Origin: Rhodospirillales bacterium
Lineage (GTDB): Bacteria; Pseudomonadota; Alphaproteobacteria; ATCC43930; CGMCC-115725
NCBI GenBank assembly: GCA_028288725.1
Contig: JAQGIC010000103.1
Span: forward strand, 1 to 64,000
DNA: 64,000 bases
Reading direction: 5' to 3'
Under the pieces are notes generated by a model. That model worked only from the letters and a program-made list of their open reading frames with translations, ran no database searches and was not told the origin of the DNA. Below are positions 5,281 to 46,133 of this stretch, piece after piece (position 1 is the first letter of the stretch; every line of letters starts with the position of its first letter). A program made the translations under genes and the position numbers.

Positions 5281-5311
5281 CAAACGTCTCGAATCTGACC
5301 GGTACGCCTTC

Positions 5312-13077: not shown

Positions 13078-15255
13078 ATGATCGATGACCCCGTGACCCG
13101 GCCAGAAGCATCCACCCAGGAGGCGGGGGCGGAACAGTTCGAGCTGCCGGTCGGGCCGCCCGATCCGGCGCCGTTGCCCGCCACGCCGGACGAAATCGCG
13201 GCGCTGGTTCGGCGCGCGAGCGCGCTTGAGGCCAGGCTGGCCGCGATCACCGCGCATTTCCGCCAGCGCGACGCCGCTGCCGAACGGGGCGACGGCCGCA
13301 CGACGCTTCGCGACATCTTGAACGCCGCCGATCGCTGGCTCGACAGCCTCTGGTGCGGAGCGCCGGCGCCCGACATGTCGGCCCCGTCCCGATTGCCCCG
13401 CATCTCGATCGTGACGCCGGTGCTGAACGCCCGCGACACCATCGCGGAAACCATCGAATCGGTGCTGGATCAGGCCTACCCCGATCTGGAATATATTCTG
13501 GTCGATGGCGGCTCGACCGACGGCACGCGCGAGATCATCCAGCGCTATGCCGATCGCCTGGACCTGGTGATCGCGGAACCGGACGAAGGGATGTACGATG
13601 CCGTTGCCAAGGGCTTTACCCGGGCGACCGGCGAGGTCCTGGCCTGGCTCAACGCCGACGACCTTTATCTGCCGGGCGGGCTCGACCGGGTAGGCCGGCA
13701 TTTTGCCGCCTTCCCGGACGAGCGCGTGATCTATTTCGAGAATTTGCTGTCGATCGGCGCCTGGCGCTTCGCCAATCAGCCCTTGGGGCTCGTGGATTTC
13801 CACCGCCTGGCTGACGGCCATTTCCTGTACCAGGACGGGGTGTTCTTCCGGCGCATCGCCTATGACGCGGTCGGCGGGCTCGATCGCACGCTGAAGCTGG
13901 CCGGCGACTGGGCGCTATGGCTGGCGCTGGCGCGGCGCTACCCGCTTCGCCGCCTCGACGGCCAGGTCAGCAGCTTTCGCATCCGCGCCGGGCAATTGAG
14001 CGAGGACATGGCGGCCTATGAGGCGGAATGCGCCGACGTCGCGGCACGCCTGCGGTCGACCCGGTCGCAGGCTGAACGCTTGGCCGAACTGCCCTCCCGC
14101 CTGGCGCTGGCACTCGTCGAATGGTTGGAAACGGCGGCTGGGCGGATCGGCCCGCGCCGGCGGTTCCATTTCCCCTTGGCATTCGACGAGGACGTGCCGG
14201 CCCCACGCGGCGCGGCATCCCTCGCGGCGGCGCCCGCGCGCTGTCCGATCACCGGCGCCCTGCCCAAGCAGCTGCTGTTCTCGAGCCCGGACACCCGCTT
14301 CGGCGAGCCGGCGATGAACGAGATCTGGTACCATCCGGACAGCCATCTGGCGGCGATCGGGCCGGAGATCGATCGGCCGTCCCTGCGGCGACTGCATGAC
14401 ATCCACTATGGCGGCGGCTTACGCGAAATAAAGGCGCCGGCGGAGGAGAGCCCCAGCCCGTTCCGGCATTATCGGAACCGGTCGGATCGATTGGTGCGGG
14501 CCTTTGCCCGGCTGATGCCGGCACCGCTGCGGCGGGCGCTGGTGCCCTGGACCGACGCGACGAGCGCTGAAATGAAGCGCATGACGCGCGGTTTGCTGCC
14601 GCGCCGGACGGTGGCGTTGCGCGTGCTCGATCTTGCCTGCTTCGAGGGCGATCTGCTTGACGGCTTCCACGCTGAGGGCTGGCGCACGTTCGGCTGCGAT
14701 CCGAGCGAGCGGGCGGTCGAGGCCGCGCGGGCCAAGGGGCATCAGGTCTGGCTGGGCGGCATCGAGGATGCGCTGCGGGTGATCCCGGCCGAAGAGCGGT
14801 TCGATCTGGTCATCCTGGCCCATACGCTGGAACATGCGACCGAGCCCCTGGCAGCACTCCAGCGCGCGGCCCGACTGTTGGAGCCGGATGGGCTGATCCT
14901 GATCAGCACGCCCAATCTCGATTCGGCGCAGATCGACCTCTATGGCCCGACCTGGGCCCATTGGCATCCGCCGTTCCATCGCTTCATCTTCTCGGCGAAG
15001 TCCTTGGCCATCCTGGCGGCGGCAAGCGGCCTCCGGTGCCTCAGGACCCGGAGTTGGTCCCATCCCTATTGGAGCTGGCTCAGCCTGCGACTGAACGGTC
15101 TGGGACTGATGGGCGCGGTGCCGCACGGGCTGCCGCCCGACCCGGACACTCGCGGTGCCGCGGAAGCGACGGTGCTGGCCGCCCGACTGTTCCAGGACTG
15201 GCGCGGGCGGGGCGACTATCTCTATGCCGTGTTGAAACCGGACCTGCGGAGCTGA
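13078..15255 (+). CDS. bifunctional family 2 glycosyltransferase - SAM methyltransferase
   Basis: A 725-residue fusion. Residues 1-100 are polar and helical. Residues about 105-330 form a GT2 domain: ISIVTPVLNA, LVDGGSTDGT, the acidic LNADDLYL site and GDWALWLALA near the acceptor region. After a linker that includes a Cys/Pro-containing segment (PITGALPKQLLFSS), residues about 515-660 form a class I methyltransferase (Methyltransf_23-like): VLDLACFEGDLL binds SAM, then FGCDPSE, LVILAHTLEH and LISTPN. Together these suggest sugar addition and methylation of the same glycan. It is followed after 5 bp by another GT2 gene. The ribosome site at ATG 13078 is weak, so the start is moderately sure. 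Confidence 0.85.
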   Translation: MIDDPVTRPEASTQEAGAEQFELPVGPPDPAPLPATPDEIAALVRRASALEARLAAITAHFRQRDAAAERGDGRTTLRDILNAADRWLDSLWCGAPAPDMSAPSRLPRISIVTPVLNARDTIAETIESVLDQAYPDLEYILVDGGSTDGTREIIQRYADRLDLVIAEPDEGMYDAVAKGFTRATGEVLAWLNADDLYLPGGLDRVGRHFAAFPDERVIYFENLLSIGAWRFANQPLGLVDFHRLADGHFLYQDGVFFRRIAYDAVGGLDRTLKLAGDWALWLALARRYPLRRLDGQVSSFRIRAGQLSEDMAAYEAECADVAARLRSTRSQAERLAELPSRLALALVEWLETAAGRIGPRRRFHFPLAFDEDVPAPRGAASLAAAPARCPITGALPKQLLFSSPDTRFGEPAMNEIWYHPDSHLAAIGPEIDRPSLRRLHDIHYGGGLREIKAPAEESPSPFRHYRNRSDRLVRAFARLMPAPLRRALVPWTDATSAEMKRMTRGLLPRRTVALRVLDLACFEGDLLDGFHAEGWRTFGCDPSERAVEAARAKGHQVWLGGIEDALRVIPAEERFDLVILAHTLEHATEPLAALQRAARLLEPDGLILISTPNLDSAQIDLYGPTWAHWHPPFHRFIFSAKSLAILAAASGLRCLRTRSWSHPYWSWLSLRLNGLGLMGAVPHGLPPDPDTRGAAEATVLAARLFQDWRGRGDYLYAVLKPDLRS

Positions 15256-15260
15256 TCCCC

Positions 15261-16121
15261 ATGGAACGCCCGCGCATTACGCTGGTCACGCCCAGCTTGA
15301 ACCAGGTCCGCTTCGTCGAACGCACCGTCGCCTCGGTGCTGGGACAGCGCTATCCGCGCCTGGAATATATCGTGATGGACGGCGGCTCGACCGACGGGAC
15401 GCTGGAAATCCTGAAGCGCTACCGCCGTCATTTCGCCCATATCGAAAGCACGCCCGACGAGGGGCCGGCCCCGGCGCTGCAGCGCGGTTTCAACCGCGCG
15501 ACCGGCGAGATCATGGGCTGGGTCAACAGCTACGACATGCTGGCGCCGGAAAGTCTGGAATTCGTCGCATGGTATTTCGCGACCCATCCCAAAGTCGACA
15601 TGATCTATAGCCATCGGGTGCTGATCGACGCGGCCGACCGCGCGATCGGCTATTGGCTGCTGCCGCGCCATTCCAACGGGCAGATGCGCCGCTGGCCGCG
15701 CATCCCGCAGGAGACCTGCTTCTGGCGGCGCGGGCTGTACGAGCGTGCCGGCGGCATCGACGCGAAATACCGCTTCGCGATGGATTTCGACCTGTTCGCC
15801 CGCTTCATGATGATCGGCCGGACCGTCCGTGTGGATCGCTTCCTGGGCGCCAGCCGGGACAATCCCAGCTCGACCAGCGCCCGCAAACGCTCGATCGAGG
15901 GAGCGGCGGAAGTCGATCGGATCCGTGCCGAACACGGCCTCAAGCCGCGGCCCTGGTGGCCGATGCTGGCGCACCGGTTCGAACAAGGCATGGAATGGCG
16001 GGGGCGCCAATTCGCCGAGGATCGCCGCGTGCTGCCCGGCAACCTGCCTGGTCTCGGTTGGGATTATGACCGGCTCTGGGGCGGCACGCTCAGTTCGCCG
16101 CGCGAAGGCGGCTCGGCCTAG
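15261..16121 (+). CDS. family 2 glycosyltransferase
   Basis: A 286-residue GT2 enzyme with ITLVTPSLNQ, VMDGGSTDGT and a late FDLFARFM segment. The usual acidic DXD-like site reads VNSYDMLAP, with Ser-Tyr-Asp, so metal coordination may differ. It overlaps no neighbour and starts 5 bp after the GT-methyltransferase fusion, so the two are co-transcribed and probably act on the same glycan. The stop codon TAG (16119-16121) is also the first triplet of a palindromic repeat copy. The C-terminal 60 residues are Arg/Trp-rich and may contact membrane lipid. Confidence 0.85.
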   Translation: MERPRITLVTPSLNQVRFVERTVASVLGQRYPRLEYIVMDGGSTDGTLEILKRYRRHFAHIESTPDEGPAPALQRGFNRATGEIMGWVNSYDMLAPESLEFVAWYFATHPKVDMIYSHRVLIDAADRAIGYWLLPRHSNGQMRRWPRIPQETCFWRRGLYERAGGIDAKYRFAMDFDLFARFMMIGRTVRVDRFLGASRDNPSSTSARKRSIEGAAEVDRIRAEHGLKPRPWWPMLAHRFEQGMEWRGRQFAEDRRVLPGNLPGLGWDYDRLWGGTLSSPREGGSA

Positions 16122-33743: not shown

Positions 33744-33858
33744 TAGAGCGCGATGATATGAGGCCTGCTCGGCCTCATGTCTGAATCGCACTCTAAACCA
33801 AATATTTAGAGACTGATTCACCGATCAAACCGAGTTGGTTTGATCGGATCAGGCTCTA
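33744..33858. repeat. palindromic repeat, copy B (full length, 115 bp)
   Basis: Two hairpins: ATGAGGCC..GGCCTCAT (33758-33778) and an 11-bp stem CCGATCAAACC..GGTTTGATCGG (33821-33847), with TAGAGC/GCTCTA at the ends. The right-hand CTA (33856-33858) is the TAG stop of the minus-strand cyclase-like gene. Copy C has the same length and differs at roughly nine positions by eye. Confidence 0.85.
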
Positions 33859-34653
33859 ATCCCCGAGTGCCGCCAGGAACGGCCTCGGCGCCACGCCGTG
33901 CATCTTGTGCAGATAGAGCCTCGTATCCTCGATGAGCGCCGTCAGCGCCGGACGGCTCGCCGGCGGTTCGCTGAGCGCCCGGCGCGTGAGCGGACAATCC
34001 TCGACCTCCCACGGCATGAAATTATAGGCCGATTCCGACGGACGGCCCCAGATGATCGGGTAGGGCCGGCCGAACATCACGCCCTTCAGCGCCTCCCGTC
34101 CGAGAATCGAGAAGGCGACGAGATCGCTTTTGCTCGAGGACAGGAGCAGCTCGACCAGATCGAGCGACAGCACGACCGTGGAGGGCCGCGAGAACTTGCT
34201 GATCCGGAAGCCCAGATCGATCGACGGCCCGATGAAATCCACGAGCGGCCCGCCGCCGGTCAATTCGGGAATCTCGATCTCGATGTTCGGCGTCGGGAAC
34301 TCGGCGACCCAGGCGGTCGCCTTCAGCCGCAGCGGCACTTCCTGCAGGTAGTGGGCTTCGTAGTTCGCCATGGTGATATAGAGCGCGCGGACGAGCAGGG
34401 TCGCCTCCTCGGCACTCTGCACCGGGCAGGACAGGATCAGCTCGTCGCCGAGCGCCTTCCACACCGCGATCTCGGGCAAACTCTCCTCGTCGACCATTTC
34501 CGCGGCGGTCTGGCCCATCAGCATGATCGGGAAATTGGTGAAAAAGCTGCGGAACACGGCGAGCCACGGGGGCTCCGCCGCATGCGCCGCATCCGCCTGG
34601 GCCTTGTAGGCCGTCGAGCCCGCCACATCCGCCGACATGAACAACCGCAGCAT
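33856..34653 (-). CDS. divergent nucleotidyl-cyclase-domain protein
   Basis: A 265-residue soluble protein with marks of a class III cyclase fold: RLFMSADVAGSTAYK (first metal Asp in the usual position), WKALGDELILSC (Lys and second Asp as in K.GDE) and DLGFRISKFS near the position of the conserved N..R. The normal VN..SR motif is not intact (Asn lost, Arg kept), so activity may be altered or absent. It stands alone after a terminator, next to the partner-switching operon on the opposite strand. I cannot say whether it makes a cyclic nucleotide or only binds one. Confidence 0.5.
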   Translation of the reverse strand: MLRLFMSADVAGSTAYKAQADAAHAAEPPWLAVFRSFFTNFPIMLMGQTAAEMVDEESLPEIAVWKALGDELILSCPVQSAEEATLLVRALYITMANYEAHYLQEVPLRLKATAWVAEFPTPNIEIEIPELTGGGPLVDFIGPSIDLGFRISKFSRPSTVVLSLDLVELLLSSSKSDLVAFSILGREALKGVMFGRPYPIIWGRPSESAYNFMPWEVEDCPLTRRALSEPPASRPALTALIEDTRLYLHKMHGVAPRPFLAALGD

Positions 34654-34678: not shown

Positions 34679-34795
34679 TAGAGCGTGGTTCGACTGCTCG
34701 CAATCGAACCACGCTCAGACGTTATTGATCTGGCGCGAATTCTTTGTCGTTCGAATGAGTCCATTCGAACGGTTTGGATCAGGTGATCCAAACCG
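34679..34795. repeat. triple-hairpin intergenic element, 117 bp
   Basis: Three perfect stems in a row: 13 bp (34681-34693 with 34704-34716), 10 bp (34748-34757 with 34762-34771) and 11 bp (34770-34780 with 34785-34795). It opens with TAGAGCG like the palindromic repeats and is of almost the same length, but the rest differs and it occurs once. It lies in the 401-bp gap (34654-35054) between the divergent cyclase-like gene and the signalling operon; the rest of that gap shows nothing else I can support. Confidence 0.75.
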
Positions 34796-35054: not shown

Positions 35055-35930
35055 ATGCGCATCGCCATCTGCGCCAAGCTCGATCTGTTCGGCGCCATCG
35101 CGCTCAACCATCTGCTGCCGCGCCTCGCCGGCCATGAAGTTGCGGTGTTCTATTCGAACAAACGCCGGAACGACGAGGTCGCCGTGCCGGAATTGGCGCG
35201 GCTGCGGCTCATCGAGCGCGACCTGCCGTTGGGCGTGCTGTTCCCGTTGATCGAACAGAGACCGCCGGCCTCGCCCGCCTTCCGCACCTTCCGGCAGCTC
35301 GCCGAGGCTTACGGGCTCGCCGGCACGATCCTCACCGACCTCAAGGCGGACGGCGACCGGCCGCTGCTGGCCGCGTTCCAGCCGGATCTCATCCTGTCGG
35401 TGCGCTTCAGCCTGATCTTTCCGCAGGCGCTGATCGACCTGCCGCGCCACGGCATCATCAATGTCCACCCGGGGCGCCTGCCCAACTATGGCGGCCTGTT
35501 CGCGCCGTTCCGTCAGATGCTGAACGGCGAGCAGACGCTCGGCTGCACGGTCCATATGGTCGACCGCGGCATCGACACCGGCCCCATTCTCGCGGTCGAA
35601 CCGGTGCCGCTCGACCCGAGCCGCTCCATGATCTGGCATTCGGCGCGGCTCTATGCCGCCGGCGCGCGCCGGGCGGCCGATTTCGTCGATCGGATCGCCG
35701 CCGGCCAGACGCTCCGGCCCGAGCCGCAGGACCCATCGGCCCGCGCTTATTACCGCTTTCCGACCAACGAGGAATTCGCCGCCTTCGCGGCCCAGGGGTT
35801 CGAGACGGTGAAATCGGACGATTACATCGAATGCCTTCGGCTGTTCCTGCCCTCGATCGATCTCGGCGCCATCGACCAGCTGGTACCCACGGCGGCAATG
35901 CCGGCCCGGCGCGTCGCGGGCAATCCTTAG
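35055..35930 (+). CDS. formyltransferase-family protein at the head of the signalling operon
   Basis: A 291-residue protein with a Formyl_trans_N domain: an N-terminal strand (MRIAICAKLDLFG), the core LSVRFSLIF and the catalytic trio Asn and His of GIINVHPGRLPNYGGL plus Asp of VDRGIDTGPIL. That pattern matches N10-formyl-THF-dependent enzymes such as Fmt, PurN and sugar N-formyltransferases, but the acceptor is unknown and there is no Fmt C-terminal tRNA-binding domain. ATG 35055 is chosen; ATG 35010, with AAGGA just before it, is a real alternative. It is 2 bp from the next gene, so co-transcribed. Confidence 0.7.
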   Translation: MRIAICAKLDLFGAIALNHLLPRLAGHEVAVFYSNKRRNDEVAVPELARLRLIERDLPLGVLFPLIEQRPPASPAFRTFRQLAEAYGLAGTILTDLKADGDRPLLAAFQPDLILSVRFSLIFPQALIDLPRHGIINVHPGRLPNYGGLFAPFRQMLNGEQTLGCTVHMVDRGIDTGPILAVEPVPLDPSRSMIWHSARLYAAGARRAADFVDRIAAGQTLRPEPQDPSARAYYRFPTNEEFAAFAAQGFETVKSDDYIECLRLFLPSIDLGAIDQLVPTAAMPARRVAGNP

Positions 35931-35932
35931 CG

Positions 35933-36703
35933 ATGCTGGGCAACGCCTCGCTCACCCAGCGCATGACGATCACCGTCGTCCTGATCCTGATCGTCGCCGC
36001 CACGCTGACGGCGACGCTCAACATCCTCAAGTTCGAACGGGTGGTCGCCGACCGGGAGGCCGCGATCTACGGGTTCGAGGTCAGTGACATCAAGCGCGTC
36101 GTCGAAGACAGCATGAACCTGGGTCTGGCGCTGAACATGCTGCGCAACACCCAGGCGCTGATCGACCGGCGCAATGCCGAAGATCCCGTGATTCAGGGCA
36201 TCTCGGTCTATGACGAGCAGCGGCACGTGCTGTTCGATACCGATCGGCAGCGCCTCGGCGAGCCGCTCGATCGACGCTGGCAGGCGCTGGCGCCCGACCA
36301 GGCGGCCTGGGCCGGCCGTACGCCGGACACCGCCTTTACCGGCGCGCCCCTGGTCAACAGCTTCGGCAAGAGCGTGGGGGGAATCGTGCTGCGCTACGAT
36401 CCGAACCGCATCAGCCAGACCGTGACCGGCGTGCTGCTGGAGGTGACGGTCGCGACGCTGGAGGTGACCCTCATCGCCTGCGTGATCGCCGTGGCCGGCG
36501 TCTGGTGGCTGATCCGCGACGCCCGGCATCGGCTGCAGGCGATGGGCAGCGGCCTTGCGGCATTGGCCGACGAGAACCAGCCGTCCACGCGGCTGCCGGC
36601 GTCGGCGGACGACGAACCGGGCTTCACCCGGGCGGCGCGCGAAACCCTGTATCGCCTGCGCCGGGCCGAACGGTTGATCGAACGGATAGGTTTGCGCAAA
36701 TGA
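35933..36703 (+). CDS. two-span Cache-like periplasmic sensor protein without output domain
   Basis: A 256-residue membrane protein: one span at residues about 10-32, a periplasmic domain to about 175 with VIQGISVYDEQRHVLFDTD that looks like a Cache/PAS-type ligand pocket, a second span (LIACVIAVAGVWWLI) and a short cytoplasmic tail with a HAMP-like helix pair. No kinase, methyl-acceptor or phosphatase domain follows, so any output must pass to a partner. Its stop overlaps the next start as ATGA. Gene order suggests that it forms a mixed complex with the following HAMP-MFS and HAMP-PP2C proteins. Confidence 0.65.
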   Translation: MLGNASLTQRMTITVVLILIVAATLTATLNILKFERVVADREAAIYGFEVSDIKRVVEDSMNLGLALNMLRNTQALIDRRNAEDPVIQGISVYDEQRHVLFDTDRQRLGEPLDRRWQALAPDQAAWAGRTPDTAFTGAPLVNSFGKSVGGIVLRYDPNRISQTVTGVLLEVTVATLEVTLIACVIAVAGVWWLIRDARHRLQAMGSGLAALADENQPSTRLPASADDEPGFTRAARETLYRLRRAERLIERIGLRK

Positions 36704-38862
36704 GCGGACGGAACGCCAAACCCGACCTGCGTCGCCGAAACGTCGGTGCCGGCTTCAGCCGCAGCCTGGTGACGCGTCTCGTGACGCTGTCCGTCGTCCT
36801 GATGATCGCCGCGACGGCCTTCATCTCCGAGCGCTCGCTCAATGCCGTCGCCCGCGAGGTTCAGCCGGAGTTCAATCGCGAGGCCAGCGTCGTCGGCGGC
36901 GCCATCGCGGGTCAGATCGCGCGCGCGCTCGAACTGGGCATTCCGCTGGACCAGCTGGTCGGCATGGACGAGTTCCTGGACCCCGTGCTCGCCGCCCGTT
37001 CGAGCTTCGACTATCTGATCTTGAGCGATCCCGCGGGCCGTCCGCTCTATGCCCGCGGCACCCAGATAGACCGGTTCCGGCGCGCGGTCGCCGACCGGGC
37101 CATCCTGTTCTCCGCCCCCGAAGCGGCGCTCAGCGCCGACGACGGCGAGCGCGCGGCGCAGGTCACCCAATTCGCCGGCCTGTTCAACACCGCGATCCCG
37201 ATCAGCGCCGACGGCCGGGTCCAGGCCTGGCTGCATATCGGCGTCGATGCCTCCTCGCTCGCCCGCCTGGTCAGCGATACGCGCTGGGACGTCGCCATCG
37301 TGCTGATGGTCTCGCTGCTCACCACGATCGAGCTGATGGCCTTCCTGGTCGATCGCTCGCTGTCGACCCCCCTGCGCCTGATCGAACAGCTGTCGGCGAA
37401 GGTCGCGACCGGCGACTGGGCGGTCCGCGTCGAGGTCGCGACCCACGACGAGACCGGCCGGCTCCTGCGCGGCTTCAACGCCATCATCCGGCGCGTCAAC
37501 GATCATTGGGACCGGCTCAGCTGGAAAGCGGCCGAGGTCGAGCGCGCCAACCCGCGCGCCGCCGGGCGGCTCCGCCGCATCCGCGAGGCGATCGGCCGGC
37601 ATGCGACGTTCCGCAGCGGCCGGGGCACGCTCGAGCGACCCGCGCATTCCGCGGCCATCGCACGCACGCCGCTGTTCATCTATATCTTCGCCGAGCAGCT
37701 CTCGACCTCGTTCATGCCGCTCTATGCCCGGCAGCTCTACAAGCCGCTCTGGGGCGTCGACCAGAACCTGCTGATCGGCCTGCCGATCACCGTTTTCATG
37801 GCCGGCATCGCCTTCGCGACGCCGTTCGGCGCCAGCCTGGTCCGCCGGCACGGGCCGCGTCGCGTCTTCCTGATGGGCGCTCTCCCCGCGTTCCTCGGCT
37901 ACCTCATGGTCGCCTTCGCCGATTCGCTTCCGGCCCTGATCTTCTGGCGCGCCATCACCGCAGTCGGCTACTCGATGATCACCATCTCGAGCCAGGGCTA
38001 TCTCGCCGCGATCGCCCGCCAGCAGCAGCGGACGCAGAGCATGGCCGTGTTCGTCAGCGCCGTCATGACCGGCACGGCCTGCGGCACCGCCGTCGGGGCC
38101 GTCATGGCCGACCGGCTCGGCTATGCCGCGACCTTCCTCGTGGCGGCCAGCCTCGTGCTGATCGCCGCCGGCTTCGTCTGGGTCTATATGGAGGAGCCGA
38201 AGGGCGACGCCGCCGCTGGACCGGTGCGCGCCGAGGCGCCGCCGCGCGGTTCGCTCATCCAGGCGATGCTCAACCCACGCTTCGCGGCCCTGATCCTGTT
38301 CGCGGCGATCCCCGCCAAGATCGTGCTGACCGGCTTCATCTTCTATCTGGCGCCGCTCTATCTGACGAGCCTCGCGCTGCCGCAGCCGGCGATCGGCCGG
38401 ACGATCATGAGCTACGCGCTCGTCATGATCATGACGATCGGGCTCTCGGCGCGCCTGTCCGACAAGCTCGGCTGGGCCAGCCAGCAGATCGTCTGGGCCG
38501 GGCTCGTGACCGGTCTCGGCACGGTCGCCATCCTGTTTCTGGATCCGGCCTCGGCCGTGCTGGTCGCGATCATGGTCTACGGCCTGTGCCAGGGTCTGGC
38601 CGCCGCCCCGATGTTGGCGATCGTGCCTGAGATCTGCCCGGAGGAATCGCGCCGGCTCGGCGCCGCGACGCTGTTCGGCTATCTGCGTCTGGGCGAGCGC
38701 ATCGGCAGCATGGCCGGCCCCTTCATCGCCGCCGGGCTCATTGCCACCGTCGGCTATGCCGATGCGATCCTGTCGCTGGGCGCGATTTCGACCGTGCCGG
38801 CGATCATCTATGCCATCATCCAGCGCACGGCACGCCGGCCCGTGGCGGAGGCCGCATCATGA
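36700..38862 (+). CDS. sensor-HAMP-MFS transporter fusion
   Basis: A 720-residue protein. Residues 1-215 have a first span (LVTLSVVLMIAATAFIS), a periplasmic Cache-like domain (FDYLILSDPAGRPLYARG) and a second span; a HAMP domain follows at about 216-270 (LSTPLRLIEQLSAKVATGDW, then HDETGRLLRGFN). From about 322 to 715 it is a complete 12-span major facilitator with the GASLVRRHGPRRV loop motif between spans 2 and 3. A HAMP domain, normally a signal linker in receptors, joined to a carrier is unusual and suggests that ligand binding outside gates transport, or that transport is reported to the phosphatase encoded downstream. ATGA overlaps on both sides. The transported solute is unknown. Confidence 0.8.
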   Translation: MSGRNAKPDLRRRNVGAGFSRSLVTRLVTLSVVLMIAATAFISERSLNAVAREVQPEFNREASVVGGAIAGQIARALELGIPLDQLVGMDEFLDPVLAARSSFDYLILSDPAGRPLYARGTQIDRFRRAVADRAILFSAPEAALSADDGERAAQVTQFAGLFNTAIPISADGRVQAWLHIGVDASSLARLVSDTRWDVAIVLMVSLLTTIELMAFLVDRSLSTPLRLIEQLSAKVATGDWAVRVEVATHDETGRLLRGFNAIIRRVNDHWDRLSWKAAEVERANPRAAGRLRRIREAIGRHATFRSGRGTLERPAHSAAIARTPLFIYIFAEQLSTSFMPLYARQLYKPLWGVDQNLLIGLPITVFMAGIAFATPFGASLVRRHGPRRVFLMGALPAFLGYLMVAFADSLPALIFWRAITAVGYSMITISSQGYLAAIARQQQRTQSMAVFVSAVMTGTACGTAVGAVMADRLGYAATFLVAASLVLIAAGFVWVYMEEPKGDAAAGPVRAEAPPRGSLIQAMLNPRFAALILFAAIPAKIVLTGFIFYLAPLYLTSLALPQPAIGRTIMSYALVMIMTIGLSARLSDKLGWASQQIVWAGLVTGLGTVAILFLDPASAVLVAIMVYGLCQGLAAAPMLAIVPEICPEESRRLGAATLFGYLRLGERIGSMAGPFIAAGLIATVGYADAILSLGAISTVPAIIYAIIQRTARRPVAEAAS

Positions 38863-39884
38863 GCCCCGCGCCGCTCGTGATGCTGCCGCGCCGCCGGTTC
38901 CTCGCGGGTGCCGCCGCACTGGGCGGCCTGGCGCTCGGCGCGCCGGCGATCGTGCGCGCCCAGGGCAGCAGGCCGCGCATCTACATGATGCTGTTCCGCG
39001 GCTGGGAAGATGCCTGCGACGGCTTCCGCGACTATCTGATCTCGCGCGGTCTCGATGTCGAGATGACGATCGGCAACGCGGACCGGGAAGCCGGCGCCGT
39101 GCCGGGCCTGGTGGCGGCCGCCAAGGCCCTGCGGCCGGATCTGGTCTATATCTGGGGCACCAACACGGCGGCCCTGGCGCTGGGCCCCTGGGACGCACCG
39201 GATCCGACGCCCTATCTGACGGACATTCCGGCCGTGTTCAACATCGTGACCGAACCGGTCGGCAACCGCATCATCCCGTCGCTCGAGCATCCCGGGCGGA
39301 ACGCGACCGGCACGCTCTACGTCGTGCCGATCGATATTCAGCTGCGCACGATCGCCAGCTACAAGCCGTTCAAGCGCCTGGGCATCATCTACAATCCGCT
39401 GGAGCGAAACTCGATCCTGACGGTCGACGCGCTCAAGACCGAGCTCGCCAAGCTGGGCGGCGAGCTGATCGAAAGTCCGGTGCCGATCGCCGACGGCGAG
39501 CCGGTGGCGGCGGGCCTGAGCGAGCTGGTCAAGCGACTGAAGGATGATGGCGCCGACTGGCTCTACATTCCGCCCGACACGTTCCTGCAGCAGCACCGCA
39601 ACCTGTTGACCAACAGCGCGCTCCAGGCCGGATTGCCGGCCTTCACCTCGACCGAGCCCTATATCCGCGACAGCAACGCGCTGTTCGGGCTGGTCTGCCG
39701 CTACTACAACATCGGCCAGTTCACCGGACGCAAGGCCGAGCAGATCCTGCGCGAAGGGGCCAAGCCCAGCGAGCTGCCGGTCGAAACGCTGAACCGCTTC
39801 TCGCTCTTGGTGAACATGCGGGCGGCCAATAAGCTGAAGCTCTATCCGCCGATGAACATGCTGCGCTACGCGGAGGCGGTATGA
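38859..39884 (+). CDS. TrpX-like periplasmic substrate-binding protein (ABC_sub_bind)
   Basis: A 341-residue exported protein with a twin-arginine-type leader (PRRRFLAG, then AALGGLALGAPAIVRA) and the two-lobed ABC_sub_bind fold: DLVYIWGTNTAAL, NATGTLYVVPI and LGIIYNPLERNS. Such proteins bind small ligands, often aromatic amino acids. No ABC permease or ATPase is present here, so it probably presents ligand to the Cache sensors or the MFS domain encoded on either side rather than feeding an ABC importer. ATGA overlaps join it to both neighbours. Confidence 0.85.
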   Translation: MSPAPLVMLPRRRFLAGAAALGGLALGAPAIVRAQGSRPRIYMMLFRGWEDACDGFRDYLISRGLDVEMTIGNADREAGAVPGLVAAAKALRPDLVYIWGTNTAALALGPWDAPDPTPYLTDIPAVFNIVTEPVGNRIIPSLEHPGRNATGTLYVVPIDIQLRTIASYKPFKRLGIIYNPLERNSILTVDALKTELAKLGGELIESPVPIADGEPVAAGLSELVKRLKDDGADWLYIPPDTFLQQHRNLLTNSALQAGLPAFTSTEPYIRDSNALFGLVCRYYNIGQFTGRKAEQILREGAKPSELPVETLNRFSLLVNMRAANKLKLYPPMNMLRYAEAV

Positions 39885-42052
39885 CGACGCCCGCGGTCCT
39901 GCCCGCCGGCCGCGCACGCCGGCCCATGCGCCGGCTGGCGCGGCCGGCGCTGCTGCTACGCACGCGGATCGTGCTGCTGTTCGCGATCGTGACGGTGCTG
40001 TTCGGGGCGTTGGTCGGCGGTCCGGCGGGGATCGTGATCACATCCGCCGACCGGACGCAGGAGGACATTCTGCTGCAGGATCAGCGGCTCCTGTGGCAGG
40101 ACAGCGTCACGCTCGGCGGCCAACCCTATCTCGCCCTCGCCAAGCAGCTCGCCGGCGATGCTCGGTTCGTCTCGCTGCGCGCCGCCGCCTCGACCGGCGC
40201 GCTGACCCAGCGTCTGGCCCACGAAGTGGCCCGCCGCCAGGACGATCTGGAGAACCCGGTCTATCGGATCGATCTGGTCGGCGCCGACGGCAGGCTGATC
40301 GCCTCCTCTGCCGGCGTCGGCGTCGACGATCCGCTGGTGGATGCGGTCGGCATCCTGCGCCAATTGGGCGCCGCACGCAGCGTGATCGGCGTCGAGAATC
40401 GCCCGGATACCCCGCCCGGCGAGCATCAGCTGATGAAGGTCGCGAGTACCGCGCTGCCGGCCGACGGCGGTTTCATCGCCGTCGCCGGCGGCTTCGGCAG
40501 TTCGGTCGCGGCGCTCGCCGAGGCGCTCAAGGCCGACACGTTCGTGATCGGCCGCGACCGCAAGCTGATCAGTGCCATTCATCCGGCGCTCTGGCCGCAG
40601 ATCGTCACCGACGATACCCCGCTCAACGACCACACGATCATCCACCTGAGCCGTGAAGGCCGCGCGCTCGAGCTGGTGCCCTCGCCGATCGTCGATTCGA
40701 CCGGCAACACGATCGCGACCGTCTTCACCCTACGCGACGTCACCTTCACCGAGCAGAACCGGCTGCTGCTGTTCTGCGTCACCGGCGCGCTCGCGGCCTT
40801 CCTCCTGGTCGTGCTCGTGGCCAGCCTCTACGGCTATCTGAATGGCGCGTTCATGCCGCTGGGCGAGGTCGCGACCGCCGTGCGCGCGCTCTCGCGCGGC
40901 GACACGATGGTCAGCGTCGACCTGCCGTCCCGCGCCGACGAGGTCGGCCAGATCGCCGAGGCGGTCGAAGTGTTCCGGCGCGACGCGGTCGAGCTCGAAC
41001 GGCTCGCCTTCAAGGGGCGCATCGAGCGGGCCCAGCAGGAAGCGCTGATCCGCCATGAGATGACCAAGCTCGCCAGCACGCTCGACCCCGAGGCGCGCGC
41101 GCAGGTCGTGGCCGATCTGGAGGCGCTGCAGACCGGGGCGGAATCCCAGGACGAGGGACGTTCGGGCGCGCTGCTGTCCGAAGCCTTCAAGCATATGGCC
41201 GCCCGTGTCGTCGAGGCGCACCGGCAGCTGTCCGGCCTGCTCGCCGAACGAACCCGCGACCTGACTATCGTGCGCCAGGCGCTCGACGAGCGGAACGAGC
41301 TGACCCGCATCCGCCAGGAGCTCGACGTCGCGCGGCGCCTGCAGCTCTCGAGCCTGCCGACCCGCTTTCCGGCCTTTCCGGACCGGACGGAATTCGACCT
41401 GCATGCCGCCATGCTGCCCGCCCGCGAGGTCGGCGGCGATTTCTACGATTACACCCTGGTCGATCGCGACCATCTGGCGGTGATGATCGGCGACGCATCG
41501 GGCAAGGGCGTCTCGGCCGCCCTGTTCATCGCCGTCGGACGGAGCCTGATGCGCTCGGCCGTGGGCCGAGGCGCCAGCCCGTCCGAATGCCTGGAGATCG
41601 CCAACAACACGCTCTGCATCGACAATGAAACGATGATGTTCGCAACGGCGTTCATTGCCATCATCGACTTGCGCACGGGTGACATGGTCTATGCCAATGC
41701 CGGACATAACCCGCCCTACATCAAACGCGCCGACGGCCGGGTGACGACGCTCGACCAGTCGAACGGCATCGCGCTCGGCGTCGTCGAAGAGATGGCCTTC
41801 GTCGATCGGCCGGAGCGGCTGGTCCCCGGCGACACATTCCTGCTGTTCACCGACGGCGTCACCGAGGCAACGGATGCTGCCGGCACGCTGTTCACCGAGC
41901 CCAGGCTGATCGAAAGCCTGGAGGACATCGGCGCGCTCAGTCCGGGCGCGGTCATCGACCGGGTGGTGGGCGACATCGGCCGCTTCGTCGGGACCGCCGA
42001 ACAGGCCGACGACATCACCATGATCTGCACGCGCTATCTGGGGGCGGCATGA
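39881..42052 (+). CDS. RsbU-like PP2C phosphatase with Cache and HAMP domains
   Basis: A 723-residue receptor phosphatase: span at about 28-48, a large periplasmic domain (50-285) with YRIDLVGADGRLIASS of Cache type, span (290-312), HAMP (about 318-372), a coiled linker, then a SpoIIE/PP2C domain (about 490-720). Metal-binding motifs are intact: REVGGDFYDY, VMIGDASGKGVSAALF, LFTDGVTEA and EQADDITM. Such enzymes dephosphorylate a STAS anti-anti-sigma protein, freeing the partner. The matching kinase gene follows with ATGA overlap and a STAS gene lies 160 bp beyond on the other strand. Confidence 0.92.
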   Translation: MTTPAVLPAGRARRPMRRLARPALLLRTRIVLLFAIVTVLFGALVGGPAGIVITSADRTQEDILLQDQRLLWQDSVTLGGQPYLALAKQLAGDARFVSLRAAASTGALTQRLAHEVARRQDDLENPVYRIDLVGADGRLIASSAGVGVDDPLVDAVGILRQLGAARSVIGVENRPDTPPGEHQLMKVASTALPADGGFIAVAGGFGSSVAALAEALKADTFVIGRDRKLISAIHPALWPQIVTDDTPLNDHTIIHLSREGRALELVPSPIVDSTGNTIATVFTLRDVTFTEQNRLLLFCVTGALAAFLLVVLVASLYGYLNGAFMPLGEVATAVRALSRGDTMVSVDLPSRADEVGQIAEAVEVFRRDAVELERLAFKGRIERAQQEALIRHEMTKLASTLDPEARAQVVADLEALQTGAESQDEGRSGALLSEAFKHMAARVVEAHRQLSGLLAERTRDLTIVRQALDERNELTRIRQELDVARRLQLSSLPTRFPAFPDRTEFDLHAAMLPAREVGGDFYDYTLVDRDHLAVMIGDASGKGVSAALFIAVGRSLMRSAVGRGASPSECLEIANNTLCIDNETMMFATAFIAIIDLRTGDMVYANAGHNPPYIKRADGRVTTLDQSNGIALGVVEEMAFVDRPERLVPGDTFLLFTDGVTEATDAAGTLFTEPRLIESLEDIGALSPGAVIDRVVGDIGRFVGTAEQADDITMICTRYLGAA

Positions 42053-42474
42053 GCAAACAGCCGGTCGCCATTCTGGAGGAGGCGCTGCCGAACGACCTGG
42101 CGGCGATCGGCGCGTTCGCGGAGCGGGTCGAGGCCTTCTGCGCGGCGGAAGGCGTAGCACCCGCGATCGTCTATCAGCTCAATCTCGCGATCGACGAGCT
42201 CGCGACCAACGTCATCTCCTACGGCTGGGACGACGCCGGGCCGCATCAGCTCCAGATCAAGCTCTGCCTGGCACCGGGCCGGCTGACCGTGCTGATCGAG
42301 GACGACGGCCGTGCGTTCAACCCGCTCGACCGGCCGCCGCCCGATCTGGATGCCGCAATCGAGGCGCGGGCCATCGGCGGCCTCGGCATCCATTTCGTGC
42401 GCCAGTTCGCCACCGACTTCACGTACGAGCGGGTGGCGGGCCGCAATCGCCTGACGATCGGGAAGCGTCTCTAG
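42049..42474 (+). CDS. RsbW-like anti-sigma/serine kinase (HATPase_c_2)
   Basis: A 141-residue GHKL ATPase of the RsbW/SpoIIAB type: N box in LAIDELATNVISYGW, DDGRAFNP and the G2-like IGGLGIHFVRQF. These proteins bind a sigma factor or another target and phosphorylate a STAS antagonist. Last gene of the operon. Its TAG stop (42472-42474) is the first triplet of palindromic repeat copy C. The target it restrains is not encoded in the window. Confidence 0.9.
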   Translation: MSKQPVAILEEALPNDLAAIGAFAERVEAFCAAEGVAPAIVYQLNLAIDELATNVISYGWDDAGPHQLQIKLCLAPGRLTVLIEDDGRAFNPLDRPPPDLDAAIEARAIGGLGIHFVRQFATDFTYERVAGRNRLTIGKRL

Positions 42475-42586
42475 AGCGCGATGATATGAGGCCTGCTCGC
42501 CCTCATATCTGAATCGCACTCTAAATCATATGTTTAGAGACTGATTCACCGATCAAACCGAGCCGGTTTGATCGGATCAGGCTCTA
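42472..42586. repeat. palindromic repeat, copy C (full length, 115 bp)
   Basis: Same structure as copy B: two hairpins and TAGAGC/GCTCTA ends. CTAG stands at both borders, as expected of a 4-bp target duplication. The first triplet is the stop codon of the RsbW-like gene. It lies between the convergent kinase and STAS genes and may end their transcripts. Confidence 0.85.
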
Positions 42587-42634
42587 GCGTGCGATGACCC
42601 GAGGCCCACTGAATTGCCCGCCACATCATATGGG

Positions 42635-42946
42635 TCAGCGCAGGGCGGTGAGCGCGCTCGCCTGATCCGGGTGGATGTCGAGGATCGAGCCGAAGCCGCT
42701 GACCTTGAACACCTCGGCGATGGACGCGTTGAGCGAGCAAAGCGCGAGCTTGCCGCCCACGGCCTTTAGCTTCTTCGCAGCGATCAGCACGATCCGCAGA
42801 CCGGCGCTCGAGATATATTGCACCTTGGAGAAGTCGATCAGCATCTGCGTGGTGCCGCCGGCGACTGCGGCAAGCACTTCCTGCTCGAAGCCCGGCGCCG
42901 AGTGGCTGTCGAGACGGCCGGCGGGCGATAGGATTGTTTCGGACAT
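42635..42946 (-). CDS. STAS-domain anti-anti-sigma factor (RsbV-like)
   Basis: A 103-residue single STAS domain with MLIDFSKVQYISSAGLRIVL, the site where partner kinases phosphorylate a Ser (Ser46 or Ser47), and the late FKVSGFGSILDI segment. Unphosphorylated it would capture the RsbW-like kinase. ATG 42946 has GGAAAG at long spacing. It converges with the phosphatase-kinase operon, so the three partner-switching parts are transcribed separately, which could change their ratio. Confidence 0.9.
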   Translation of the reverse strand: MSETILSPAGRLDSHSAPGFEQEVLAAVAGGTTQMLIDFSKVQYISSAGLRIVLIAAKKLKAVGGKLALCSLNASIAEVFKVSGFGSILDIHPDQASALTALR

Positions 42947-43181: not shown

Positions 43182-43808
43182 ATGCAGCGAATTCGCCACG
43201 GCGTTTTGGGCCTCGCGCTTGGGTTTATGGTGATCGGCGGGACGGCGCGCGCCGCGGAGGTGGCGGGCGATGTGCTGACGCTGCGCGGCAATTGTCTGCT
43301 GAGCTCGTCCGGACAATCGACGGCCCTTGCCGTTGGCACGCCGGTTCATGTCGGCGACGTCATCGATGTCCCGGCGGACGGGCGATTGAAGCTGCACATG
43401 GCCGACGGCTCGGTGATCTCGGCTGCATCGGGGACCCATCTCACGATCGAGCAATATGCCCCGGGCGCCAACGGGGCGCCCCGCGACGTGCGTCTCGGCC
43501 TGGCGGCGGGATTGCTGCGGGCGGTCGTGGCCGTCGCGGCCCAGCCCTCGACCTTCGAGGTCGAAACCGCCGTCGGGGTCGCCGCCGTTCGCTCCACGGA
43601 CTGGTTCGTCGGGTCCGACAAGGCGGGAACCCAGGTCGGGGTCCTGACCGGCATCGTGACGCTCTCGGACCGGGCCAAGCAGCACACGGTCAGCATTCCC
43701 GCTCGCTGGGGCGCCCGCATCCGGGGCGACGGGCTGGCACCGACCCCACCGCGTCTGTGGAAGGACGCCGAATTCGCCGACGTGATCGGGCGCACCGATC
43801 AGCCCTAG
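43182..43808 (+). CDS. exported FecR-domain protein
   Basis: A 208-residue protein: signal peptide ending ARA-AE, then a FecR domain (VGTPVHVGDVIDVPADGRL and LHMADGSVISAASGTHLTIE). In cytoplasmic-membrane FecR proteins this domain passes signals to sigma factors; freestanding exported copies often precede CHASE2-cyclase genes, as here, and may supply its periplasmic ligand or partner. Its stop TAG (43806-43808) is the start of repeat copy D, which separates it from the cyclase gene. Confidence 0.85.
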   Translation: MQRIRHGVLGLALGFMVIGGTARAAEVAGDVLTLRGNCLLSSSGQSTALAVGTPVHVGDVIDVPADGRLKLHMADGSVISAASGTHLTIEQYAPGANGAPRDVRLGLAAGLLRAVVAVAAQPSTFEVETAVGVAAVRSTDWFVGSDKAGTQVGVLTGIVTLSDRAKQHTVSIPARWGARIRGDGLAPTPPRLWKDAEFADVIGRTDQP

Positions 43809-43872
43809 AGAGCCTGATCCGATCAAACCGCAGCGGTTTGATCGGTGAATCAGTCGCTAAATATCTGGTTTA
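43806..43872. repeat. palindromic repeat, copy D (partial, inverted)
   Basis: About 67 bp matching, in reverse, the hairpin-2 half of copies B and C and ending just past TGGTTTA. The first triplet is the stop of the FecR gene. It falls between two co-directional genes and contains a GTG (43845) that opens in frame with the cyclase but is not its likely start. Confidence 0.8.
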
Positions 43873-43898
43873 AAACATTCCGGGGGAGACGCTATCCC

Positions 43899-46133
43899 GT
43901 GAGACGGCTGCCGCCCCCCTTGCGGGATGCCTTCGTCGCTCTGTGCGTGGCGGGCTGCATCCTCGTCGCGATGCGGCTGGCCGCCCAGACCGACGTCGCG
44001 CGGATGCTGGAGACGACGTTGCTCGATACGCGCTTCCGCGTGCGCGGTCCTGTGGTGCCGGGGCCGGAGACGGCGATCCTTCTCGCCGACGATGCCAGCC
44101 TCGCGGCGCTCGGCCGCTGGCCGCTGTCGCGTCACGTACTAGCCAATGCCGTGCGCGCACTCGATGCGGCCGGTGCGCGGATCATCGCCTTCGACATGCT
44201 GTTCCCGGAGACCGATACCACGCCGCCCCCGGGGTGGCGGGCGGCGCTCGGGCAGTGGGCCTCGGCCGAGGGGACCGTCAGGGACGCGGCCGCGACGGCG
44301 TTGGCGGGGCTCGCCGTCGACGATCCGGACGGCGATCTGGCCTCGGCCATGCACGACTTCGGGCATGTCCTGCTGCCCGTGGCGCTCTCGCCGATCGGGC
44401 CTGAGGGCGACGAGCCGGACAGCCTGGCCGCGTCGGCATTCCAGAGTTTCGAGCGCAGCACGGCAAAGCCGTCCTTTCCGCTTCAACCGCGCAACGCGAT
44501 GTTGCCGGTGGCGCCGCTTGCCGCCGCGGCCACCGCGCTCGGCCATGTCACCGTCACCTATGACGTGGACGGTCGCCTGCGCTATGCGTTCCTGTCCCTG
44601 CCCTATCAGGGCGATTTCCTGCCGTCGCTGTCGCTGCGCGCGGCCGCTCTCTGGCTGGAGCCCGACTGGTCCAAGACCGCGCTGGCCCCGGGCGAGGCGG
44701 TACGGATCGGCCCGGAAATCGTGCCGACCGATGCGGCCGGGCGGATGGTCGTCAACTTCCGCGGGCCGCGCGGCACCTTCCCGACGTATTCCCTGATCGA
44801 TCTGCTGAACGGGCGTGTTCCAGCCGACGCGCTGCGCGGCCGGATCGTGCTGATGGGCGCATCCTTTACCGGCAACGAGGATACCAATCCCTCGCCCTTC
44901 GGCCGCAAATTGCTGCCGGGCATCGAGTTCCACGCGAACGTCATCGATTCGATCCTGCATCGCGATTTCATTCGCCAGCTCGACCCGGGCGCCGTCGGAC
45001 TCTTGCTGGCGGCGACGCTCCTGGCCGTCGGGGTCGCGGCGGCCGCGGCATCGCTGCTGCCGACCTGGTTCGGCGGCATCGTGGCGCTGCTGCCGGCGGC
45101 GGGCTTTGCCGTCCTGGCCCAGATCGCCTTCAATCGCGGGTATTGGATCCCGGCGACGGGTGCGCTGGCAGCGCTCGCCGGCGGCGGCCTGAGCGTGATC
45201 CTGTTCCGCTATCTGATGGTCGATCGCGAAGGGCGCCGGGTGAAATCCGCCTTCCGCCGCTATCTTGCGCCCGCCCTGGTCAATCGCATCGCGGCCAATC
45301 CCGAGCGGCTGCGGCTCGGCGGCGAGAAGCGCACGCTGACCTTGATGTTCTGCGACATCCGGGGATTTTCCGGCGTTTCCGAGGGCTTTCGCGAGGATCC
45401 GCAGGGCCTGACCCGCCTGATCAACCGCTTTCTCACTCCCATGACGGACATTATCCTGGCCCGGCAAGGCACCATCGACAAATATATGGGCGACTGCATC
45501 ATGGCGTTCTGGAACGCTCCGCTGGACGATGCGGGCCACGCCGCCCATGCCTGCGACAGCGCGCTGGCGATGTTCACGGCGCTGGACCGGCTGAACGACG
45601 CGCTCGACCGCGAGGGGACCGCCCCGCTGAAGATCGGCATCGGTCTCAATACCGGGGCCTGCGTGGTCGGTAATATGGGCTCGGAGCAACGTTTCGACTA
45701 TTCTGTGCTGGGCGATGCCGTCAACCTCGCTTCGCGCCTGGAGGGGCAGTCCAAGACCTATGGGGTCGGCGTCGTCGTGGGCGAGGATACGAGAGCATCC
45801 GCCGCCGACCATGCCATGCTCGAAATCGACCGCATCATCGTCAAGGGCAAGGCCGAGGCCGTGTCGATCTTCGCGCTGCTGGGCGCACCCGACCTCGCGC
45901 GGTCCGAGATCTTCCAAGCCCTCGAAGGCCCCCATGCCGCGATGCTCGCCAGCTATCGCCGACGCGACTGGGACGGCGCGATGGTGGCCCTGGCGCAATG
46001 CCGGGACCTGATGACCAGGCTGCCGACCGGGCTCGGTGGCCTGTACGACCTCTATGCGGCACGTGTCGAGGCGTTTCGCCAAAACCCACCGCCGCCGGAT
46101 TGGGACGGCGTCTACATCGCGCTCTCGAAATAA
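43899..46133 (+). CDS. CHASE2-adenylate cyclase
   Basis: A 744-residue membrane cyclase: first span at about 10-28, a periplasmic CHASE2 domain to about 350 (ILLADDASLAALGRWPLSR; FDMLFPETD), three spans (about 355-430) and a class III cyclase domain from about 475. All catalytic positions are visible: metal Asp in MFCDIRGFS and YMGDCIMAF, adenine-selecting Lys in TIDKYMGD and Asp in SVLGDAVN, and transition-state Asn/Arg in AVNLASRLEG. It should make cAMP in response to a periplasmic cue. GTG 43899 with GGGGGA eight to ten bases upstream is chosen over GTG 43845, which lies inside the repeat. Confidence 0.92.
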   Translation: MRRLPPPLRDAFVALCVAGCILVAMRLAAQTDVARMLETTLLDTRFRVRGPVVPGPETAILLADDASLAALGRWPLSRHVLANAVRALDAAGARIIAFDMLFPETDTTPPPGWRAALGQWASAEGTVRDAAATALAGLAVDDPDGDLASAMHDFGHVLLPVALSPIGPEGDEPDSLAASAFQSFERSTAKPSFPLQPRNAMLPVAPLAAAATALGHVTVTYDVDGRLRYAFLSLPYQGDFLPSLSLRAAALWLEPDWSKTALAPGEAVRIGPEIVPTDAAGRMVVNFRGPRGTFPTYSLIDLLNGRVPADALRGRIVLMGASFTGNEDTNPSPFGRKLLPGIEFHANVIDSILHRDFIRQLDPGAVGLLLAATLLAVGVAAAAASLLPTWFGGIVALLPAAGFAVLAQIAFNRGYWIPATGALAALAGGGLSVILFRYLMVDREGRRVKSAFRRYLAPALVNRIAANPERLRLGGEKRTLTLMFCDIRGFSGVSEGFREDPQGLTRLINRFLTPMTDIILARQGTIDKYMGDCIMAFWNAPLDDAGHAAHACDSALAMFTALDRLNDALDREGTAPLKIGIGLNTGACVVGNMGSEQRFDYSVLGDAVNLASRLEGQSKTYGVGVVVGEDTRASAADHAMLEIDRIIVKGKAEAVSIFALLGAPDLARSEIFQALEGPHAAMLASYRRRDWDGAMVALAQCRDLMTRLPTGLGGLYDLYAARVEAFRQNPPPPDWDGVYIALSK

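Follow-up and report, generated by a model that had tools for sequence, protein, structure and literature searches.

A conserved Cache-HAMP-MFS core with exchangeable enzymes and outputs: a candidate transport-coupled chemosignalling unit in Proteobacteria

This work concerns a compact gene cluster within a 64,000-nucleotide stretch of DNA (the window) from a Rhodospirillales bacterium, contig JAQGIC010000103.1, in which a membrane sensor fused to a transporter is encoded among the parts of a phosphorylation switch. Six genes occupy positions 35055-42474 of the plus strand. Gene 1 (35055-35930) encodes a formyltransferase (Formyl_trans_N, Pfam E-value 8.7e-22) and gene 2 (35933-36703) a single-Cache membrane sensor without an output domain, recognized from its predicted structure. 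Gene 3 (36700-38862) encodes a fusion of Cache, HAMP and major facilitator superfamily (MFS) parts (MFS_1 1.3e-39, HAMP 7.7e-08, Cache from a model), and gene 4 (38859-39884) a TrpX-like binding protein (ABC_sub_bind, 3.2e-26). In gene 5 (39881-42052) a double-Cache-like sensor is joined to HAMP and to a PP2C phosphatase of the SpoIIE/RsbU type (SpoIIE 2.1e-51), and gene 6 (42049-42474) specifies an RsbW-like HATPase_c_2 kinase with its N-box and GGLG motif (3.8e-23). A 2-bp gap between the formyltransferase and Cache genes is followed by four ATGA overlaps, and a single transcript is therefore likely. The gene for a STAS protein with an SSAGLR motif (Pfam STAS 1.5e-17) lies on the minus strand at 42635-42946 and converges on the operon, 160 bases separating its end from the RsbW stop; its frame is open up to 43090, with 42946 the likely start. 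This close packing and the converging STAS gene are as given in the preliminary description of this DNA. Between the converging genes, a 12-bp perfect inverted repeat with a 3-nt loop (42549-42575) may act as a terminator. Third-position GC is 0.87-0.91 in the six genes and 0.89 in an upstream RND pump gene, so that composition gives no mark of recent foreign DNA.

By the preliminary description, its reading would fail if homologues of these genes lay apart in related genomes. Instead, they are clustered in numerous genomes belonging to different families. With gene 3 as the query, 6 of 61 genomes gave a match, its own included, and the only genome of the same genus in this set (G001) gave none, which indicates a patchy distribution. 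(Here L-numbers denote surveyed loci and G-numbers genomes, G000 being that of the window.) A metagenome-assembled genome (MAG) of Magnetospirillum contains, at L009, a gene 3 homologue that is 35% identical. The genes at this locus follow the order Cache, Cache-HAMP-MFS, binding protein, formyltransferase, a sensor+PP2C+RsbW protein and STAS; neighbors overlap by 4 bases in two places and are otherwise separated by about 7, 40 and 65 bases. There is a frame break in the L009 MFS gene near position 11936, which may be a sequencing error or real.

A four-row profile of the Cache-HAMP-MFS protein matched 33 of 385 alphaproteobacterial genomes, at 37 places (E 1e-30). Surrounding DNA of 3.5-20 kb at the best place in each of the 32 other genomes, together with the window, was scored with local profiles; a home-made gene caller was used on these loci, and start positions may be off. 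The architecture of the window was found in 20 of the 33 matching genomes, five of the 20 on contigs shorter than 10 kb. Included in this number are L041 and L057, short contigs on which the Cache partner scores below 25 bits, and L019 and L055, whose contigs stop before any binding-protein gene. L059 and L072, MFS matches without a Cache part, were left out of the architecture counts, and L068-L070, three species of one genus, were counted as near-copies. The remaining counts are based on 15 longer loci of 10.7-20 kb each (30 kb for the window). The Cache partner, the Cache-HAMP-MFS protein and the binding protein are encoded together in all 15, although in L048 and L049 one gene intervenes before a divergently oriented binding-protein gene. 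The third sensor (the gene 5 type) is present in 12, being absent from L047, L052 and L053, PP2C in 10, RsbW in 7 and STAS in 6. The counting profiles are partly self-derived: those for PP2C, RsbW, STAS and formyltransferase come from the window and L009, the third-sensor profile draws on L009 and on five of the 15 longer loci, and the enzyme profiles draw on the loci named below. These data define an invariant core, made up of the Cache partner, the Cache-HAMP-MFS protein and the binding protein, an enzyme that is exchangeable but recurrent, and an output that varies among a partner switch, a nucleotide cyclase and an adjoining type VI secretion cluster. We regard it as close to certain that the genes form one functional unit, hereafter the cassette.

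Twelve of the other 13 matching genomes encode a longer MFS protein, in frames of 786-948 amino acids, with Cache-profile matches below 40 bits at most. We read these as a second form, whose Cache parts are presumably contained within the same protein. In 11 loci of this form (L061-L067 and L071 from eight of the twelve genomes, L058 from the search with gene 3, and L091 and L092 from the phylum-wide search below) an MFS protein of about 800 amino acids stands with an ATP-grasp protein resembling D-Ala-D-Ala ligase and with a more distant binding protein. In L060 and L068-L070 a long second-form MFS protein likewise has a binding protein, a PP2C protein and a GCS2-like ligase encoded nearby, and L060 additionally contains RsbW, STAS and type VI genes. 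Beyond the Alphaproteobacteria, a 16-row profile matched 12 of 398 genomes of the phylum (E 1e-40). On plasmids, tblastn found 13 records, eleven of them from Azospirillum; in nine the match extends over 80% or more of gene 3. Azospirillum brasilense Sp7, a laboratory strain, has consecutive genes for Cache, Cache-HAMP-MFS, binding protein and a GNAT-like enzyme. Among three of the 13 plasmid records that were examined, L095 (an Azospirillum ramasamyi plasmid, annotated MFS transporter) was dropped, having no cassette annotated around it.

Gene 2 has no Pfam family match. Its AlphaFold2 model, based on a 29-sequence alignment (mean pLDDT 88.2), contains a long first helix, a five-stranded sheet and a second membrane helix, and Foldseek relates it to the Cache/PAS-like sensor domains of WalK, DcuS, CitA, KinD and DctB with E < 0.001. 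Pfam names no Cache domain in the N-terminal part of the gene 3 product either. In the model of this protein (mean pLDDT 82.1), two long helices flank a domain of five strands, and a HAMP-like segment leads into an MFS part of 12 helices. The front end of the protein is a probable Cache domain, to judge from the five-strand pattern before HAMP, the listed Foldseek matches covering the MFS part. By both Foldseek and a sequence profile, VMAT, NorA and MdfA are closest to the MFS part. These are H+-coupled antiporters, and the resemblance makes export likelier than uptake. The charged residues of MFS helices 1 and 11, numbered from the model, are nearly invariant in a 23-row alignment. In L087 and L088 the Cache partner and the Cache-HAMP-MFS protein are a single protein of 855 amino acids; since the two are fused there, the gene 2 product is probably the partner of the gene 3 product.

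The binding protein encoded by gene 4 has an apparent twin-arginine leader, judged by eye, and the operon contains no ABC permease or ATPase gene to serve it. Its designation as TrpX-like is correct as a statement of kinship and goes too far as a statement of equivalence, with a score of 89.9 bits for NF041285 against a cut-off of 390. The solved structures closest to it are those of VC_1101, CD0873 and SP1069. According to the structural report, these proteins bind Phe, Tyr and Trp and hold the amino and acid groups alike (PMC6816091). An ExN[S/A] loop is common to the three, to the window protein and to most cassette members. The Asp in a PPD loop of the window protein is shared with the three amino-acid binders and with 17 of 26 cassette members; we treat the occurrence of Asp or Ser at this position, a pattern taken from aligned sequences, as only a hint of the ligand class.

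The enzyme is the part of the cassette that changes its identity. Fourteen of the 15 longer loci contain one of five kinds: a formyltransferase (the window and L051), a short GNAT protein (L042, L047), a GNAT-like protein (L045, L046, L050, L052, L054, L056), a protein resembling ketopantoate hydroxymethyltransferase (L043, L044) or an ATP-grasp protein (L048, L049). L053 has none of the five. The enzyme profiles were built from these same loci, and the figure of 14 is therefore descriptive. The enzyme gene is the immediate neighbor of the core in 13 of the 15 longer loci. The window formyltransferase scored 70.5 bits with the model for methionyl-tRNA formyltransferase (TIGR00460), below the cut-off of 201.5, and its domain is related to sugar formyltransferases as well as to Fmt. 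Asn136, His138 and Asp174, which we take to be the catalytic triad, are kept in the three sequences aligned. At E 1e-30, a profile built from the window, L009 and L051 found only its row donors G000 and G198 among 385 genomes, and no match in the other 383; no more than six candidate places per genome were scored in this search, and no more than seven in that with the GNAT-like profile. In the genomes searched this formyltransferase is thus a small subfamily seen only with the cassette. The long GNAT-like family was assigned by eye, its five scanned members having no Pfam match. Its profile matched 9 of 357 genomes; five strong matches (E <= 1.2e-79) are the profile's own rows, all at cassettes, and four weaker ones are in genomes with no cassette part in the short flanks examined. 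A version lacking the Azospirillum brasilense row detects the enzyme beside the core of that species, with 192 bits. When the enzyme labels were placed on a tree of the 26 binding proteins, they required 9 changes, compared with a minimum of 8 and a shuffled mean of 16.0, and 0 of 200 shuffles gave so low a number.

The components of the partner switch carry intact motifs wherever they were aligned. GGD, TDG and DD, the Asp motifs that presumably bind metal, are preserved in 16 of 16 PP2C domains (matches above 180 bits), DE...N (the N-box) and GGLG in 10 of 10 RsbW kinases and SSAGLR in 9 of 9 STAS proteins (both above 60 bits). By comparison with RsbV we assume that the serine of SSAGLR is the site of phosphorylation. 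The window kinase is a stand-alone protein and the strongest HATPase_c_2 match in its genome (1.6e-22). The next match (2.4e-11) is a 523-amino-acid frame that also contains the only other SpoIIE match, these being the two SpoIIE matches in the 5.5-Mb genome. Four STAS matches were found there, two of them stand-alone, and the window protein is one of those two. In L009 PP2C and RsbW occupy one open reading frame and STAS is next. RsbW proteins with long N-terminal fusions in L043 and L050, read from stop-to-stop frames, were dropped, the extra part having the look of a non-coding frame. The preliminary description proposed a partner-switching operon with three related membrane sensors. PP2C, RsbW and STAS are indeed present, and the switch is one of several outputs and not the core. 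The statement on three related sensors is likewise only partly right; gene 5 belongs to a different, double-Cache-like family, for which a profile from six other loci, with the window excluded, matches the window protein at E 2.7e-63. In L045 and L046 a sensor of this type is joined to a nucleotide cyclase in place of PP2C, and the L045 protein scores just above the Pfam cut-off for dCache_3 and below that for dCache_1.

Cyclases also occur together with the kinase. At 14300-16012 (minus strand) of L056, RsbW (HATPase_c_2 6.8e-20) is joined to a cyclase-like domain (Guanylate_cyc 2.7e-04) and an N-terminal domain. The part of this fusion that precedes RsbW is 36% identical over 426 amino acids to a TPR-S cyclase gene product in L042, where the cyclase gene shares the locus with RsbW and STAS. 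The Cache/MFS, PP2C/RsbW and RsbW/cyclase fusions suggest that these proteins are physical partners. L042 and L056 make a nucleotide cyclase the best lead for the target of the STAS protein.

The third kind of output is seen in L093, a Vibrio plasmid on which genes for VgrG, DUF6931, TssA, Hcp, TssC and TssF come after the core in the same orientation. L085 and L086 have the same order from VgrG to TssC. In L087 and L088 the fused core is situated between type VI genes (FHA, ClpV-like and TssF, identified by Pfam in L087 and by local profile in L088). These two loci also encode, in the interval separating the core from the type VI FHA gene, a second, small binding protein (SBP_bac_3 in L087). 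Among the Alphaproteobacteria, type VI genes are found inside the L044 and L060 stretches, and in G312, G055 and G080 the contig of the core also has TssK, at a distance of up to about 35 kb. The genome-level link to TssK is weak (9 of 33 cassette genomes as against 58 of 352 others). TssK, the only type VI family for which the window's genome (99.66% complete) was searched, gave no match, and for this reason control of type VI secretion was rejected as the function in this organism. Type VI secretion is one context of the core and not its function here. Many small alphaproteobacterial genomes (0.6-2 Mb) contain one moderate TssK match, which perhaps reflects a distinct type VI-like apparatus.

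Judged from its parts, the unit is likely to read a periplasmic small molecule. Candidate parts of a secreted-signal (autoinducer-like) system, with the enzyme as putative producer, the MFS protein as putative exporter and the binding protein as putative receptor, are all present and are co-inherited. Based on this co-occurrence and on the exporter-type MFS, we propose that the enzyme makes the molecule that the unit reads. In the first step, the formyltransferase would formylate a small, perhaps amino-acid-like, metabolite. The product would then be exported by the MFS part, in exchange for protons, while the attached Cache-HAMP and the Cache partner gate or report its passage. Outside, the exported binding protein would capture the molecule and present it to the Cache domains. 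The periplasmic sensor of gene 5, which is joined to the phosphatase, may then set PP2C activity on the STAS protein, opposed by the RsbW-like kinase, which would phosphorylate the serine of SSAGLR. Unphosphorylated STAS would finally bind the kinase or an effector, in relatives perhaps a nucleotide cyclase. This whole sequence, in which a molecule is made or modified, exported, read and converted into a state of STAS phosphorylation, is the reading that we favor tentatively, and we place it a little short of probable. A broader version extends it to a modular family of cell-to-cell signalling systems in Proteobacteria that use self-made signals, with one core, an exchangeable synthase (formyl-, acyl-, ATP-grasp or C1/aldol-type), each producing its own modified amino-acid-like signal, and an exchangeable output. 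We consider this generalization possible, with more doubt than confidence.

Several observations weigh against these proposals. The enzyme labels cluster on the MFS tree as well as on the binding-protein tree (9 changes, shuffled mean 16.1); such equal clustering indicates joint inheritance, helped by near-copies, and not in itself a matching of enzyme to ligand. The formyltransferase label alone requires 3 changes on the binding-protein tree, and 500 of 500 shuffles are as low. L051, one of three formyltransferase loci, has this gene convergent at its far end and not beside the core. Among the Foldseek fold matches of gene 3 there is also a galactonate symporter, at rank 28, and helix 1 of the window MFS carries Gln333, adjacent to Glu332, at a position almost always occupied by Glu in the family. 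The Asp of the binding-protein loop is replaced by Ser in 9 of 26 members (L040, L048, L049, L051, L053, L085, L086, L090 and L093), so that one ligand chemistry for all is doubtful. RsbW is missing from 8 and STAS from 9 of the 15 longer loci, and no output target of the STAS/kinase switch was found.

Four other explanations were considered. The unit may sense a nutrient, an amino-acid-like solute from outside that is bound, read and handled by the MFS protein, while the formyltransferase acts elsewhere, for example on a surface sugar. The aromatic amino acids bound by the protein family of gene 4 (PMC6816091) would fit such a role, as would the kinship of the formyltransferase domain to sugar enzymes as well as to Fmt and the position of L009 beside genes that we read by eye as exopolysaccharide genes. 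However, an enzyme acting elsewhere does not explain why strong relatives of the formyltransferase are absent from the 383 other genomes or why other small-molecule enzymes take much the same place in other loci. Nor is a catabolic pathway evident among the gene families common to at least 3 loci, most of which are unnamed; genes resembling those for short-chain dehydrogenases, LysR and ABC ATPases are found repeatedly, in 4-5 loci. We regard nutrient sensing as rather unlikely. Alternatively, the unit may respond to competitors: the enzymes would disarm a foreign molecule, the MFS protein would expel it, and its detection by the binding protein and Cache sensors would turn on a defense such as the adjoining type VI system. 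The nearest MFS relatives are indeed drug and amine:H+ antiporters, GNAT and ATP-grasp enzymes could detoxify, and type VI genes are near the core in L044, L060, L085-L088 and L093. Yet the binding protein is kin to binders of aromatic amino acids, the ketopantoate-hydroxymethyltransferase-like and HMGL-like members look biosynthetic, and the TssK search of the window's genome was negative; we consider this explanation unlikely. It is quite improbable that the MFS fold is a transceptor that senses ligand and has lost transport. Its fusion to Cache-HAMP, amid signalling genes, would be expected of a pure sensor; the near-invariant charged residues in helices 1 and 11 and the match of the model to working antiporters would not. 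That the genes are merely chance neighbors can be dismissed, given the unbroken association of the core genes and the PP2C gene in 10 of 15 loci when the window's genome has two SpoIIE matches in all.

As a signalling device, the phosphorylation switch of the favored chemosignalling reading is of a known kind. The abstract on SiaABC(D) of Pseudomonas aeruginosa describes a membrane PP2C, a kinase and a target resembling an anti-sigma antagonist in one switch, with SiaC phosphorylated on Thr68; it names no MFS protein, binding protein or enzyme, unlike the window operon (PMC7647112). Of the NCBIfam models, SiaA (NF038263) scores highest with gene 5, at 69.8 bits against a cut-off of 700. RbaVWY of Rhodobacter capsulatus is an alphaproteobacterial switch like RsbV/W/Y for which no sigma partner was found; unlike the present case, the parts of the account available to us mention no transporter or binding-protein cassette (PMC3999984). 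CD0873, TrpX and VC_1101 belong to the same family as the gene 4 protein (PMC6816091), and the ExN[S/A] loop is largely common to them; the window operon is set apart from them by its lack of an ABC permease or ATPase. SLC5/STAC histidine kinases such as RpuS resemble gene 3 in that a transporter fold is fused to signalling parts. These combine a solute symporter with a histidine kinase (PMC9100948), whereas in the window an antiporter-like MFS part follows Cache-HAMP, without a catalytic output. Among the papers listed in full-text searches of the open-licence PMC literature, none describes a Cache-HAMP-MFS protein accompanied by its sensor partner, a binding protein and an enzyme of exchangeable kind. 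The present work supplies a defined gene set, including that of Azospirillum brasilense Sp7, for testing the input of such Gram-negative signalling units, and it suggests that the core could provide the input to certain type VI secretion clusters. If it is true that the enzyme makes the ligand, the cassette would represent a new route to bacterial chemical communication.

Some neighboring genes deserve mention. Divergent from the STAS gene, at 43182-46133 (plus strand), are genes for a FecR-domain protein and then a CHASE2-adenylate cyclase, the catalytic end of which is 34% identical over 311 amino acids to the third-sensor cyclase of L045; this pair is possibly an output and possibly an ordinary neighbor. 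On the other side, a gene at 33856-34653 (minus strand), divergent from the formyltransferase gene, encodes a 265-amino-acid protein with no Pfam or NCBIfam match that looks by eye like a class III cyclase (ADVAGST, LGDE). It was rejected as an output partner, having no significant similarity to the L042 and L056 cyclases. Two short near-perfect inverted repeats (34681-34716 and 34770-34795) lie between this gene and that for the formyltransferase. Finally, in L053 the core is followed, at 5118-8266 (minus strand), by genes for an NMT1-like binding protein and a LysM-domain secretin.

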